DNA of 58,840 nucleotides from a virus. The stretch lies in IMG/VR virus record IMGVR_UViG_3300050119_000051, positions 1 through 58,840 of that record; one strand, 5' to 3'. The notes beneath the pieces were generated by a model that searched no databases, was not told the origin of the DNA, and worked only from the letters and a program-made list of their open reading frames with translations. Shown here one piece after another: positions 2,673 to 57,604 of the stretch (position 1 is its first letter; each line of letters begins with the position of its first letter). The position numbers and the translations under genes were made by a program.

Positions 2673-4042
2673 CCGACGCCGTGGTCCTACGCGATTACCA
2701 GCTCGACATCGAAGAGACCGCGCGCCAGCATTTCCGGGAAGTCCCCGCAGTTCTGATTCAGCTTGCCACCGGCGCAGGTAAGTCCCTTATTGGCGCGTCG
2801 ATCTGCAAAAAAGCCTCCCTGAGAGGCCAACAGGTATTCTGGATCACACACCGACGCGAACTGATCAAACAGGTATCTGGCGCATTCACCGCGCACCGCG
2901 TAGAGCATTCATTCATCGCCGCCGGTTTTACATACGATCGTGCAGCGCGGGTGCATATCTGCAGCCTTGAGACTCTACGCCGAAGACTCGGTGTCGTGCC
3001 GACACCTGATCTAATCGTGTGGGACGAAGCCAGGCATCTCCAATCGGCCACATGGAGCATGGTCTATCAGCGCTGGCCGCAAGCGTGGCACCTTGGCCTG
3101 GACGCCACGCCCACCGGAGGACTTGGAAAATACTTTCAGCGCATGGTGTGCGGTCCGCCAGTGCAGGATCTCATTGATCGCGGATACCTCGCTAAATACA
3201 GGCTTTTTGCGCCTAAGACCCCTGACACATCGAAGCTTCATCTTCGCGCGAATGAGTTTATTACTGACGAACTTGAGGAGATGTTCGATAGACCGACCGT
3301 TGTCGGGGACGCGATCAGTCACTATGAGAAATTCGCCAGCGGTAAACGTGCGCTGGTGTTCTGCGTATCGGTGGAGGCCAGCAAGCACATGGAGCAGGCG
3401 TTTCGCGAAGCCGGATACCAAGCCGTCCACGCTGACGGAAACCTGAACAGCCAAGTTCGCGACACCGTCATCGCTGACTTTCAAGCTGGACGGATTCAGA
3501 TTCTATGTAATGTCGGACTTTTCACTGAGGGACTCGATGTCGTTGGAGTCGAGTGCATCCTGCAATTGCGTCCGACGAATTCTGTTTCTGTATATTTACA
3601 GATCATCGGCCGCGGGCTCAGGCCAGCTCCTGGTAAGACGGAGTGTATTATCATTGATGCGTGTGCGAACTGGCGCGCGCATGGATTGCCGAGTGATCCT
3701 CGCGATTGGAGTCTGAAAGACGATCCGCGTGGCCGCGCTAAACCCCGCGACCGCGCCCTGAAAATCTGCAGGTGGTGCTTCGCCGCAGCCTATGCGGGGC
3801 CACCGCTGTGCCCGAACTGTCAACGTCCGTTCCCAATTGAATCGCGCGAGGTCAAGCGTATTGCCGGCGAGCTCGGTGAGGTCAGCGGCGACGATCTACT
3901 GCGCGCCCGGCAGATCCGCGACCGGCGCCAGCAACAGGGCCGCGCGAAAACCTTAGAGGAACTCGAGGCGTACGGGCGCATAAAAGGCTATAAACCCGGA
4001 TGGGCGCGCAGAATCTATGCGGCAAGGCAACTCAAACAATGA
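2669..4042 (+). CDS. SF2 helicase with C-terminal zinc-ribbon-like segment
   Basis: 457 residues, related to UvsW/Ssl2-type phage helicases. Motifs: LRDYQLDIEE (Q-like), Walker A ATGAGKS (about 33-39), ITHRRELIKQ (Ia), motif II WDEAR (about 118), LGLDATPTG (III), CNVGLFTEGLDV (V) and QIIGRGLRP (VI). After the helicase core come CRWC and CPNC pairs (about 367-384), a likely zinc ribbon, then a basic tail. The start overlaps the degraded methyltransferase stop (ATGA). Likely acts in replication fork remodelling or recombination. Confidence 0.88.
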   Translation: MTDAVVLRDYQLDIEETARQHFREVPAVLIQLATGAGKSLIGASICKKASLRGQQVFWITHRRELIKQVSGAFTAHRVEHSFIAAGFTYDRAARVHICSLETLRRRLGVVPTPDLIVWDEARHLQSATWSMVYQRWPQAWHLGLDATPTGGLGKYFQRMVCGPPVQDLIDRGYLAKYRLFAPKTPDTSKLHLRANEFITDELEEMFDRPTVVGDAISHYEKFASGKRALVFCVSVEASKHMEQAFREAGYQAVHADGNLNSQVRDTVIADFQAGRIQILCNVGLFTEGLDVVGVECILQLRPTNSVSVYLQIIGRGLRPAPGKTECIIIDACANWRAHGLPSDPRDWSLKDDPRGRAKPRDRALKICRWCFAAAYAGPPLCPNCQRPFPIESREVKRIAGELGEVSGDDLLRARQIRDRRQQQGRAKTLEELEAYGRIKGYKPGWARRIYAARQLKQ

Positions 4043-4437
4043 GCGAAAATATAGTTGTCCGCGACATTCAGGCCAAGTTGTCGAATAACGAGGTACGATT
4101 GTGGAGGAATAACTGCGGGAATGGGTGGCTAGGCAACGCGACGGTGCTTGAGAACGGTGATGTGCTGCTCAGGAATCCGCGGCGTATCCAGTTCGGTCTC
4201 GCGGCCGGCTCCAGCGATATCGTAGGATGCATATCGAAAATAATCACGCTCGACATGGTCGGCCAGAAATTCGCGCAGCTCGTCAGCATCGAAGGGAAAT
4301 CTAAAACCGGACGCTTACGCGACGAGCAAGCGCTGTGGCTCGATTGCATGCGCTCGCTCGGCGCACTGCATGGCGTGGCACGATCAGTGGAGGATGCGCG
4401 CAGAATACTGCAAGGGTTTAGGCCAAGCGCAGCCTAA
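4039..4437 (+). CDS. VRR-NUC domain nuclease
   Basis: 132 residues. The pattern of the VRR-NUC (PD-(D/E)xK superfamily) fold is visible: NEVRLWRNNCG near the N-terminus, GSSDIVG (about residues 58-64, catalytic Asp), SIEGKSKTGRL (about 84-94, the ExK pair) and a following DEQALWLD helix. Such proteins are short phage nucleases next to SF2 helicases. The ATG at 4039 overlaps the helicase stop by 4 nt and replaces an earlier in-frame ATG at 4000 that would lie inside the helicase. Confidence 0.82.
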   Translation: MSENIVVRDIQAKLSNNEVRLWRNNCGNGWLGNATVLENGDVLLRNPRRIQFGLAAGSSDIVGCISKIITLDMVGQKFAQLVSIEGKSKTGRLRDEQALWLDCMRSLGALHGVARSVEDARRILQGFRPSAA

Positions 4438-54194: not shown

Positions 54195-56279
54195 TTAATG
54201 CGCCGCGTACGCGCCCAAGTCGTTGACGTTCGGCCGAGGCACGATGCCGATCACCGTATTGCCGTACTGACCTGTTACCTGCAGATTCGACAAGCTAGCC
54301 GCCGCATTCGGTACGCTGATAGGATAGGCCGTGGCCTCTCTGAGCAGCGGCGAGCCAGACGTTGCGGACAAGGTAAAGTCGCCATTCAACAGTGGACTTG
54401 TGCCAGTGATCACATTGCCTTGATTGTTGAGCGTGACCGTATTGCCGTTCTCGCCACTGCCCACGTAGCCGGTTGAGATCCAGTTCGTATCGATGAGATT
54501 GACCGTTCCGCAGCAGATGCCCAGCTCGTAGGTATCGTCCGGTGCTCGCGCGTTGAACCAGATGACATTATCGGCAGCGTCCACCGATTGCTGGTTGCTG
54601 GGCATATCAAAGATGCCCCAGCGCGTATAGTCGGCAGTCTCGTTCTCGACCACGACCGTGTTGTAATAGAAATACAGCGGGCCGTTGTGGTAGTTCGAGG
54701 AACCTGTCTGATCCCCCTGGCTGTCGCCGCCCCAGTGGATGAGATCTGTTGAGCAGATGCCCAGCGCACAGTTATCGACGATCACGTTGCCGTATACCCA
54801 GCCGTAGTTGTAGAGCGGATCGGCCTGCACAATGTCCCCGCCCTCCGGGTCAACCAGATCAATCGCCCGTGCGGAGGCGACGATGGTGTTGTTGCGGATG
54901 ACCGGGCCGCTGCTGCGGTCCTTGAGTGAGCTGCCTTGGGCGCTCGGAATCAGAGCATTGATGAAATTGCCCTCATACAACGAGCGAATCCCCTGCACGT
55001 AAATGTTGTGAACGAGGTAGCTGCCGCTCAGGCCGTTGTTGAAGAAGTCGTTCCCGCGCAGCGTGACAAACGAGCTAAAGCGCTGATCGTCCTGCGTGTT
55101 GAAGAAAACACCGCCATCGTTGGCGTCAATGGTGTCGTATTGGATCGTGGTGTGATCCACGGCGACACCATAGACGGCGTAAGCCCCGGAGGCATAGTTC
55201 ACGATCTGGCCGGAATGGTTGGTGAATTTATTGGTGCCCTTGGCGCCTGTCATCTCCACGTTCTGAATGGTGATGTAGCTTTGCCGTGTAGCGTAGGCTT
55301 CAGTCGGCCCCCACAGGAACACGATCAGGCCCAGCGGCTCGACAATCGTGCCGGCGGTTCCGGACCAGAACCCGGCCACAATGCCGTCGGCGGCCGTGAC
55401 GGCATTGGCGCCATCGATCACCGGGCGATCGCAATTGGCGTCAGTCACACCATTGATCACGATCGGCTGCGCTGCGGTTCCAACGGCCTGAAGGCCGATC
55501 TTGGTGTTGTAGTGCGCCGCCTGATAATAGATATTCACCACATCTCCGGGCGCCAATGACAGCCAAGGCACTGCCGTGAGCGTGGTGTACTTCTGCCCAG
55601 GACCGACGTTGTAGGTCGCGTGCGAGCCGGTCATGGGCTGCGATACGCAGGTCGTCGGCGTTGCCGCGATAGCCGGCGGCCACAGCGCTGTCCCGCCGCT
55701 CGAAGATGAGCTGGAGGACGATGAGCTGCCGCTGGAGCTTGACGAACTCGACGAGCTTGAGCTTCCCGAGGAACTGGACGAGGAACTATGGCCGCCGGAA
55801 CTGCTCGAGGACGATGAGCTGGATCCGCCCGATGAGCTTGAGCTGGACGAAGAACTTGACGAACTAGACGATGATCCGCCACTTGAAGAACTACTGCTCG
55901 ATGACGAACTGCCGCCGCCGGTCAGTGTCAGAACCCCGTTCGCCGCCGCGCTGCCCGTGAGTGGATAGCTTGCAGTTTTGGTGACGACGCTGTTGACGTA
56001 GACCGCAGTGCCCGAAAGCGCAACCGATTTGCTTCCCTTGACCTCATTGAGCGTGCAGCCCTTGAGCGAATAGGTGCCGGACTGCAATGCAGGAATTGAG
56101 GCCGTGCCGGAGCAACCAAAACTGCCGGAGCCGGTAGCCACAGCAGGCAACGTCAGCGCGCCGGAAATACCGACTTTGTACTGACCGTTCATAGCCGCAG
56201 CAGTGCCGGAAAACGGGTACGATTGCGCGAACGCTGCGGGCGCGAACGCCAGCAAAATAAGAAACAAAAGACGTGTCAT
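54195..56279 (-). CDS. Secreted beta-helix protein (polysaccharide lyase/hydrolase-like) with poly-Ser linker
   Basis: 694 residues. Start at ATG 56279 (GGAGATCGAT upstream) rather than 56426, which would bury the signal peptide. MTRLLFLILLAFAPAAFA is a Sec signal cut before Gln. Residues 20-120 form a beta domain with four Cys. Residues about 121-198 are a poly-Ser/Gly linker. Residues about 200-694 form a right-handed parallel beta-helix with repeats such as SYITIQNVEMTGAKG, TTIQYDTIDANDGGVF, LRGNDFFNNGL and IRNNTIVASARAI, as in pectate-lyase-like enzymes. Likely exported glycan-cleaving enzyme or adhesin; catalytic residues cannot be assigned by eye. Confidence 0.75.
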   Translation of the reverse strand: MTRLLFLILLAFAPAAFAQSYPFSGTAAAMNGQYKVGISGALTLPAVATGSGSFGCSGTASIPALQSGTYSLKGCTLNEVKGSKSVALSGTAVYVNSVVTKTASYPLTGSAAANGVLTLTGGGSSSSSSSSSSGGSSSSSSSSSSSSSSSGGSSSSSSSSSGGHSSSSSSSGSSSSSSSSSSSGSSSSSSSSSSGGTALWPPAIAATPTTCVSQPMTGSHATYNVGPGQKYTTLTAVPWLSLAPGDVVNIYYQAAHYNTKIGLQAVGTAAQPIVINGVTDANCDRPVIDGANAVTAADGIVAGFWSGTAGTIVEPLGLIVFLWGPTEAYATRQSYITIQNVEMTGAKGTNKFTNHSGQIVNYASGAYAVYGVAVDHTTIQYDTIDANDGGVFFNTQDDQRFSSFVTLRGNDFFNNGLSGSYLVHNIYVQGIRSLYEGNFINALIPSAQGSSLKDRSSGPVIRNNTIVASARAIDLVDPEGGDIVQADPLYNYGWVYGNVIVDNCALGICSTDLIHWGGDSQGDQTGSSNYHNGPLYFYYNTVVVENETADYTRWGIFDMPSNQQSVDAADNVIWFNARAPDDTYELGICCGTVNLIDTNWISTGYVGSGENGNTVTLNNQGNVITGTSPLLNGDFTLSATSGSPLLREATAYPISVPNAAASLSNLQVTGQYGNTVIGIVPRPNVNDLGAYAAH

Positions 56280-56404
56280 ATCGATCTCCGTGCATAAAGG
56301 GTGAGTTTGCGAATAGGTTTTCGATGGCCGCGATCGAGCGCGCGGCTCAATAGACGCATTGCGAAGAACAGTGCGGCGATGGCAAGGAAGGCGGTGGCGC
56401 TCAT
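56276..56404 (-). CDS. Small one-TM protein
   Basis: 42 residues from ATG 56404: MSATAFLAIAALFFAMRLLS is a membrane helix, followed by a basic tail (RGHRKPIRKLTLYARR). Stop overlaps the secreted protein's ATG. Could regulate or assist the downstream export gene. Confidence 0.5.
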   Translation of the reverse strand: MSATAFLAIAALFFAMRLLSRALDRGHRKPIRKLTLYARRSI

Positions 56405-56580
56405 GGCTCGCTGCCCTGATCCACATCGATTGAATCGGTCATGTCGTGCTGGGGCGGCAACGGTGGCAACGGCTTTGCGGTCAGCGCCTTGATGGCCTTG
56501 GCGTGCTCGCTGAAGCGAATCCATTGACCCTTATCGTTGGCCTTGGGACTGCCGCGAAGGGTGTAGCGCTGAATATTCAT
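56401..56580 (-). CDS. Small phage protein
   Basis: 59 residues: MNIQRYTLRGSPKANDKGQW then FSEHAKAIKALTAKPLPPLP and an acidic end. Resembles small early phage proteins. Start overlaps the end of the methyltransferase frame; stop overlaps the next start. Confidence 0.5.
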   Translation of the reverse strand: MNIQRYTLRGSPKANDKGQWIRFSEHAKAIKALTAKPLPPLPPQHDMTDSIDVDQGSEP

Positions 56581-57197
56581 GGCGCGGCTCTCATGATTGC
56601 GCGCCCGATGATTTCCGCGATCTGCGGGACGACGGCGTTGCCGAGGGCTCTAAGGCGGTGTGCCCGATCGGCAGGCCCATCAACCATTCTCGGAACGTGT
56701 ACGACCTGACGAGGTCCTGGCGGCCAGTATCCACAAGCTGATCGCAGAGGTTCGCTATGTGCAGCCGTCCATTGTTGCCCCGACGTTCCCGGTTTCCGCG
56801 CCCAGATTGGCCCTTGTAATCCCGCGTCGTCGGGGTATGCCAGTATCCAGGCTCGTTTTCGGTGCTGACTGGCTCCAATATCGTCAGCTCCAAGCACTCG
56901 CCATTCCGCGTCATACCGCAGGTCGGCAAGGTCTCCGAGAACGGTGAGAAGTCCTCTAACAGTGAGAGCTGCAACGTTCTCCACAATCGCAAACTTCGGT
57001 CGTACCTCGCCAATAAGCCGGGCGAATTCGCACCAAAGCCCGCTGCGCTCGCCAGAGAGGCCCGCGCGCCTTCCGGCATGACTGACGTCTTGGCAGGGGA
57101 AGCCGCCGCATATGACGTCTGCTGAGGCTCCCGTAAGCGTTCTGACGTCTTCATGGCACGGGATGCCGGGCCAGTGCTTTGCAAGGCCCGCTCGACT
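56577..57197 (-). pseudogene. C5 cytosine DNA methyltransferase, N-terminus replaced
   Basis: The frame reads most of a C5 methyltransferase: LAKHWPGIPCHEDVRTLTG, motif IV VICGGFPCQDVSHAG with catalytic Cys (about 57090-57107), GERSGLWCEFARLIGEVRP, motif VI IVENV, LGDLADLRYDAEW, motif VIII IGASQHRKRAWILA and motif X RLRALGNAVVPQIAEI. The first about 50 residues (motif I, FSGIGG) are absent and no ATG/GTG/TTG occurs before a GTG at 56984. The 5' end merges into the start of an HNH gene (57151-57279), so a deletion near 57185-57195 joined two genes. Target-recognition region also looks short. Confidence 0.75.
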
Positions 57198-57223
57198 TCA
57201 TATAGCCCAGCCACGGCCAGCAC
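56591..57223 (-). CDS. Overlapping-frame protein across the methyltransferase
   Basis: 210-codon open frame with ATG at 57223, one base off the methyltransferase frame on the same strand. It reads SLRLWRTLQLSLLEDFSPFS, TLPTCGMTRNGEC, GYWHTPTTRDYKG, FREWLMGLPIGHTALEPSA and TPSSRRSRKSSG. I recognise this series (W-T-P-T, M-G-x-P-x-G-x-T, SATPSS) from methyltransferase-associated phage sequences. It is exactly the alternate reading of the conserved MTase motifs, so it may be a real overprinted product or a shadow. Not proven to be translated. Confidence 0.35.
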   Translation of the reverse strand: MLAVAGLYEVERALQSTGPASRAMKTSERLREPQQTSYAAASPAKTSVMPEGARASLASAAGFGANSPGLLARYDRSLRLWRTLQLSLLEDFSPFSETLPTCGMTRNGECLELTILEPVSTENEPGYWHTPTTRDYKGQSGRGNRERRGNNGRLHIANLCDQLVDTGRQDLVRSYTFREWLMGLPIGHTALEPSATPSSRRSRKSSGAQS

Positions 57224-57279
57224 TCATCCGGCCCACGCTTATCGACCTTGGCCCAGAATGATGGGTCTTTGATGCTCAT
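57151..57279 (-). pseudogene. N-terminal fragment of an HNH endonuclease
   Basis: 42 residues from ATG 57279. The first 30 (MSIKDPSFWAKVDKRGPDEC, then WPWLGYMKSSG) are the start of a phage HNH/DNA-binding family (FWAKVDKRxxxxCWxWxG). The frame then runs into the methyltransferase sequence and stops. A 15-codon frame (57276-57323) precedes it with overlaps on both sides. Confidence 0.65.
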
Positions 57280-57316: not shown

Positions 57317-57604
57317 CTACCACGACACCACCTCGTCCTTGATCAACGCTGCCTGGGTGCGCATCACGCCACGCAGCAGCAGCAGCAGCTCGCGTCCTTC
57401 ACGGTTTGCGCTGGTCTCCTGATCCACGAACGAATGGCACCGACTGCAACACCACGCGCCGAGTAGGTCGGGACTTTCAAGGCCCATCCCAGAGATCCCC
57501 ACTTGGCGGACGTGCGCAAGGACAACTGTGCTGCTATCTCCATTACAAGCCGGAGACCTAACCAAACACGGCTTGTCGCGCGCGTAGTCCCGCAAGTTGG
57601 TCAC
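57317..57604 (-). CDS. YbcO-like (DUF1364) nuclease
   Basis: 95 residues from GTG 57604 with GAGGAAAG upstream. Pattern of DUF1364: DKPCLVRSPACNGDSSTVVL, AHVRQVGISGMG, SPDLLGAWCCSRCHSFVDQE; the Cys and His residues form an HNH/Zn site. YbcO proteins are small prophage nucleases thought to act in recombination or replication. Confidence 0.72.
   Translation of the reverse strand: MTNLRDYARDKPCLVRSPACNGDSSTVVLAHVRQVGISGMGLESPDLLGAWCCSRCHSFVDQETSANREGRELLLLLRGVMRTQAALIKDEVVSW

Follow-up and report, generated by a model that had tools for sequence, protein, structure and literature searches.

The methyltransferase locus in the window (the whole stretch of 58,840 nucleotides that was analysed, IMG/VR virus record IMGVR_UViG_3300050119_000051) is best explained as a nested pair of genes for one two-subunit C5-cytosine methyltransferase, as in M.EcoHK31I, a reading to which we assign a probability of roughly 0.83. 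One frame of the pair, frame B, lies in the +1 frame relative to the methyltransferase frame (frame A) and is a protein-coding frame maintained by selection, rather than a shadow of A. Motif IX of the enzyme is present in B and not in A. Since frame B holds the motif that A lacks, the pair most likely represents one enzyme, and by analogy with M.EcoHK31I we infer that the products of A and B form a complex and that activity requires B.

Both frames and all features described for them lie on the minus strand. Frame A (56577..57197) is a 5'-truncated C5-cytosine methyltransferase gene, putatively encoding the large (alpha) subunit, with matches to PF00145 (1e-28, covering only positions 57-166 of the 324 of the profile) and to phrog_363 (1.9e-53). 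It contains motif IV, GGFPCQ, with the catalytic cysteine loop (57107-57090, aligned with M.HhaI), as well as ENV (56981-56973), QHRKR (56867-56853), LAYPDDAGLQG (56843-56811) and motif X, ALGNAVVPQ (56648-56622), of which the GN column is conserved in the alignment of the relatives. Motifs IV, VI, VIII and X could be identified in the window copy, and motif I and the start codon are missing. Frame B (56591..57223), the putative small (beta) subunit, matches phrog_1008 (1.4e-17), which is labelled 'DNA methyltransferase' in PHROGs, and gave no match to Pfam and NCBIfam models. It contains WRTLQ (56983-56969), WHTPTTRDYKG (56842-56810), motif IX TFREWLMGLPIGHT (56698-56657; assigned from motif coordinates, relatives and the match to the single-chain relative L121), which includes MGLPIGHT (56680-56657), and PSATPSSRRS (56647-56618). 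Compared with the single-chain plan, motif IX is thus not in the frame of the other methyltransferase motifs. The third frame has stops throughout the locus.

The original prediction had named GGFPCQ, ENV, QHRKR and ALGNAVVPQ as motifs of frame A, and WRTLQ, HTPTTRDYKG, MGLPIGHT and PSATPSSRRS as motifs of frame B; the former are all found where they had been placed, and the latter could all be located. Its observation that ALGNAVVPQ and PSATPSSR, and likewise LAYPDDAGLQG and WHTPTTRDYKG, are read from the same bases was confirmed, with B as the +1 frame of A. Frame B had also been described as open for 210 codons and as having an ATG. The open length holds, but the frame opens with a GTG at 57223, and the ATG (at 57154) is internal, leaving 187 codons. 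This ATG is more likely to be the start of B than the GTG.

To gather relatives, two samplings were made, one via frame B and one via frame A, the second because choosing for an open frame B had to be avoided. Matches of the B profile fall in the +1 frame of A at almost all loci. Of 64 A-sampled relatives, 57 have no stop in frame B between PCQ and the end of motif IX, and none of the 64 has a third frame (frame C) that is open over this stretch. Over the first 70 codons that follow PCQ, B has 0.07 stops per 100 codons, and over the remainder up to motif X it has 0.63, compared to 3.3 before PCQ, 7.0 after motif X and 3.4–6.6 in frame C. Stop codons in frame B of homologues, which the original prediction had regarded as evidence against a second gene, are therefore rare in this broader set, and they are absent from the clade described below.

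An alternative explanation is that frame B is a shadow, i.e. a frame that is open and alike among relatives only since A is conserved and GC-rich, and from which no protein is made. GC-rich genomes do favour open frames, B is coupled to A, and B has not been annotated in many records. However, when the A protein was held fixed and its synonymous codons were shuffled (20 shuffles per locus), many more stops and a far lower similarity were obtained in B: the mean B profile score of the A-sampled set dropped from 148 bits to 62 bits, and the observed score was higher than all 20 shuffles at 178 of 178 loci. Moreover, frame B is open over 298 codons in a phage of 42% GC. The four-fold sites of A, which are the second codon positions of B, differ by 0.443 in the overlap versus 0.582 before the overlap (pairs 60–70% identical), even though the first and second codon positions of A vary more inside the overlap than ahead of it. 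In the segment from motif VIII to motif X, mean identity among the window and the eight relatives closest to it is 0.637 in A, 0.825 in B (0.79–0.90 for the window versus each of the eight) and 0.324 ± 0.010 in shuffled B, so that over the last third B is more conserved than A. The corresponding values between motifs IV and VIII are 0.636, 0.382 and 0.264.

In a clade of relatives recognized by the beginning of the large chain, NELALFAGAGG, frame B has a fixed start. The start is usually NTGAATGAG, in which the ATG of B follows the start of A by four bases. All 71 distinct A-sampled loci have a frame B without stops between this +4 ATG and motif X (median 267 codons), and in none of them is frame C open over the same stretch. 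The Asn of codon 2 is encoded by AAT followed by G in 69 of the 71 loci, and other Asn codons are divided into 262 AAT and 401 AAC (Fisher 2e-26 for AAT+G at codon 2 versus the other Asn codons of the same genes). The +4 ATG of B is retained also where A begins with GTG or TTG. No Shine-Dalgarno signal above background was found for the shared start of A and B. In five loci (L039, L043, L064, L076 and L112) the ATG of B is kept, but no NTG directly precedes it in frame A, and the large chain must therefore start at a TTG a few codons further on or elsewhere. In relatives that fall outside the NELALFAGAGG clade, conservation of the B start is weak, with an ATG at one site in about half of them.

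In this clade, a simple OLGenie-like count, uncorrected for repeated hits, gave dNN/dNS values for B of 0.55 in the N-terminal part, 0.53 between motifs IV and VIII and 0.28 between motifs VIII and X, versus 1.12 past the end of B. For A, dNN/dSN is 0.07–0.32 throughout by the same count. A ratio below 1 for B only inside the overlap argues against a shadow. The original prediction had left the choice between an overprinted gene pair and a shadow to checks that included such a substitution analysis in both frames; the open frame B and the constraint on it in A-sampled relatives support the overprinted pair.

The conserved start of B also bears on the possibility that a programmed +1 frameshift joins A and B into one fusion protein, instead of two free chains being made. 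A separate conserved B start is absent outside one clade, and natural alleles exist (L009, L129 and L130) in which A and then B are read in one frame; both points speak for a fusion. On the other hand, loci of the NELALFAGAGG clade have at the 5' end a conserved ATG that belongs to B, motif X would be lost from an A-B fusion and yet stays conserved in A, and in mycobacteriophages the beta subunit is a separate downstream gene. We therefore consider a fusion very unlikely.

The division of the motifs indicates that the two nested frames most likely encode parts of one enzyme. In the relatives, frame A has motifs I-VIII and X, and lacks motif IX. A strict motif IX (xEWLMGxPxxW) was found in frame B in 139 of 171 relatives, and in frame A in one (L121); in 133 of the 139 it is located 18 codons before the GN of A's motif X. 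L121 is a single-chain relative, with motif IX in frame A (LNPDWVEWLMGFPFGWTEGGTYKQRLMGLGNAVVPQ) and a frame B that is not open, and the B profile matches this in-frame motif IX with an hhalign probability of 97.5%. Alignment of M.HhaI motifs IX-X with the same region is collinear, with a score (-1.4 bits) that is not significant alone.

As a control, C5 methyltransferases were collected from 22 bacterial genomes that hold relatives. Among these, 16 have motif IX in B, and their frame B contains 2 stops where shuffles predict 47.6; the other 13 (labelled 'single-chain' by the script in 5 cases and 'unclear' in 8) have 115, compared to 114.6 expected. Five of the 8 'unclear' ones (L328, L330-L332 and L350) have a motif IX-like stretch in A by eye. 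An open frame B thus goes together with the absence of motif IX from A, and is not seen where motif IX is present in A. One methyltransferase, from a Paenibacillus genome (L354), has several stops in B and no motif IX at the expected position of either frame; its motif IX may sit elsewhere. Together, the shuffles, the selection ratios with their control past the end of B and the single-chain methyltransferases of the same genomes, if these are representative, rule out a shadow, the chance of which we regard as close to nil.

It could also be envisaged that B is an overprinted protein in its own right with a different function, e.g. in counter-defence, and not a methyltransferase subunit. The N-terminal part of B is conserved (SWRTSQ, FSETWPRSGMMRNG) and has no known counterpart, no Pfam family was found for B, and loci in which A is interrupted and B is open do occur, the window included. 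Nevertheless, B holds exactly the motif that is missing from A, at a fixed distance from A's motif X, and no open B is seen where A has motif IX; we regard a different function as unlikely. Less favourable to the two-subunit reading, besides the M.HhaI score and the loosely fixed start of B outside the one clade, are the structure predictions: AlphaFold gave a weak model for frame B alone (pLDDT 66, pTM 0.32), without a structural match in the PDB, and the B profile had no match among PDB sequences. For the single-chain L121 the large domain was modelled well, and the motif IX region had mostly pLDDT <50.

We propose that frame A encodes a large subunit with motifs I-VIII and X, responsible for SAM binding and catalysis, and that frame B encodes a small subunit that bears motif IX and, probably, a large share of the part that recognises the target. 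The two would be read from one transcript, B from its own start, and the assembled chains would methylate DNA, which in a phage presumably guards against host restriction.

A nested arrangement of this kind is already known, and the window locus is a further member. In 1995, Lee, Kam and Shaw reportedly described the coding sequence for the small chain of M.EcoHK31I as lying within the large-chain gene, in a different frame. The enzyme is made up of two polypeptides; motifs I-VIII and X are in the larger and motif IX is in the smaller (PMC3404938, PMC3439449). As compared by published description, the pair described here likewise has two chains with the same motif division, and in the window and its relatives B is encoded in the +1 frame of A inside the gene of the large chain. 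Differences are, first, that the recognition domain of M.EcoHK31I (YGGCCR) has been placed in the larger chain (PMC3404938), whereas between motifs VIII and X of the pair described here it is B that is better conserved. Secondly, the large chain of the window copy is missing its start and motif I, and it belongs to a phage gene for which no restriction partner was seen. M.AquI (CYCGRG) is also a split enzyme with motif IX in the small chain, but its small chain has motif X as well (PMC3404938, PMC3439449), whereas in the window motif X belongs to frame A and the two genes overlap completely. In the literature searched, M.EcoHK31I and M.AquI were the only precedents found for nested phage methyltransferase genes.

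Some phage relatives, i.e. Ryadel gp7 and Alma gp82 of mycobacteriophages, follow the M.AquI plan. In Alma, Ryadel and Streptomyces phage Lilbooboo the large chain ends after motif VIII, and a downstream gene in the +1 frame, with a short overlap, carries motif IX and a motif X. A comparison by hhalign identifies Ryadel gp7 as a homologue of frame B (99.4%, 134 columns). Escherichia phage K1ind2 represents a second subfamily, in which both frames have been annotated. Frame-B proteins are contained in phrog_1008, phrog_26627 and phrog_35493, and the first of these is named 'DNA methyltransferase' although the protein is without catalytic motifs. In the Paenibacillus larvae phages Diva and Redbud the nested frame has been recorded as 'g49/g50 internal gene', with no function given. 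In Pseudomonas phage PMG1 (L242) only frame B has been annotated, as 'Mte8-like', and the methyltransferase frame is unannotated. A second frame inside a phage methylase gene is also found in the ShiLan type, where it encodes a homing endonuclease that has been inserted. Frame B is not an insertion and does not resemble HNH proteins, and an out-of-frame HNH insertion was ruled out as frame B matches no HNH family.

The window copy itself is damaged. Frame A has a TGA at 57200 and then no ATG, GTG or TTG until 56984, in agreement with the earlier remark that it has no ATG. The reason for this is that its 5' part is missing, and not that B is the sole gene. The start and motif I of A were lost at a junction where A is joined to part of an HNH endonuclease gene (57151..57279, minus strand; phrog_3593, 1.3e-5), a fragment which accounts for about 31 HNH residues of a 42-codon ORF in the third frame, and which (57279 to ~57190) is directly followed by the first residues of frame A. 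As motif I is absent, the large chain of the window copy is probably inactive, with frame B still open. The TGA of the HNH fragment overlaps the ATG of B as ATGA, and frame B could therefore still be translated. Immediately upstream of the fragment and the methyltransferase lies a gene for a YbcO-like HNH nuclease (PF07102, 9e-22; 57317-57604, minus strand). On the other side, at 54195-56426 (minus strand), is a 743-codon ORF with a signal-peptide-like stretch (MTRLLFLILLAFAPAAFAQ) and a long linker of nearly all Ser and Gly; its C-terminal part resembles a parallel beta-helix, with no significant Pfam match.

Neither frame has decayed compared to its relatives, which implies either that the loss is recent or that the contig end is chimeric. 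The chances are about even that the window locus is a dead remnant or an assembly chimera, in which B is open since the damage is recent. The absence of a start and motif I in A fits with this, as do the position of the junction 1.6 kb from the contig end and the fact that the junction near 57190 was not found in other IMG/VR contigs. The undecayed state of B, with its high identity to relatives between motifs VIII and X, and the ATGA overlap, which permits coupled translation, argue against it. This question concerns the window copy, and does not compete with the explanation for the family: the truncation weakens the two-subunit claim for the window copy, but not for its relatives. Other damaged loci were also observed. 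Four loci (L026, L099, L102 and L109), sampled via B, have one internal stop in A and an intact B. In L009, L010 and L024 (IMGVR_UViG_3300050137_000241, 3300050020_000062) two compensating frameshifts have produced one frame consisting of the N-terminus of A, the middle of B and the C-terminus of A, so that both subunits are disrupted in the same allele. In L004 (~3420-4120) and L125 (~3230-3640), profile matches suggest a second nested A/B pair downstream on the same contig.

More speculatively, frame B could be a specificity subunit, with target recognition written in the +1 frame of the catalytic gene, an idea that we consider rather doubtful. If true, recognition and catalysis would be forced to co-evolve on the same bases. 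Copies with a broken A and an intact B, i.e. the window and the four loci with an internal stop in A, would then supply B in trans, and this would alter what the large chain of another phage or of the host methylates.

With the nested two-subunit enzyme as the preferred reading, the interest of the locus lies in the breadth of the nested pair in phages and in its weak annotation. The second protein has been annotated inconsistently, being either missing or called 'hypothetical', 'DNA methyltransferase' or 'internal gene'. Recoding of frame A in cloning would destroy frame B, and this could explain failed activity tests. As single-chain, partly overlapping and fully nested forms all exist, the locus is a good test bed for the encoding of two proteins on the same bases. 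The results show that a same-strand nested pair of about 180–350 codons is a normal arrangement in a large family of methyltransferases of phages and prophages, rather than an oddity confined to one restriction-modification system.
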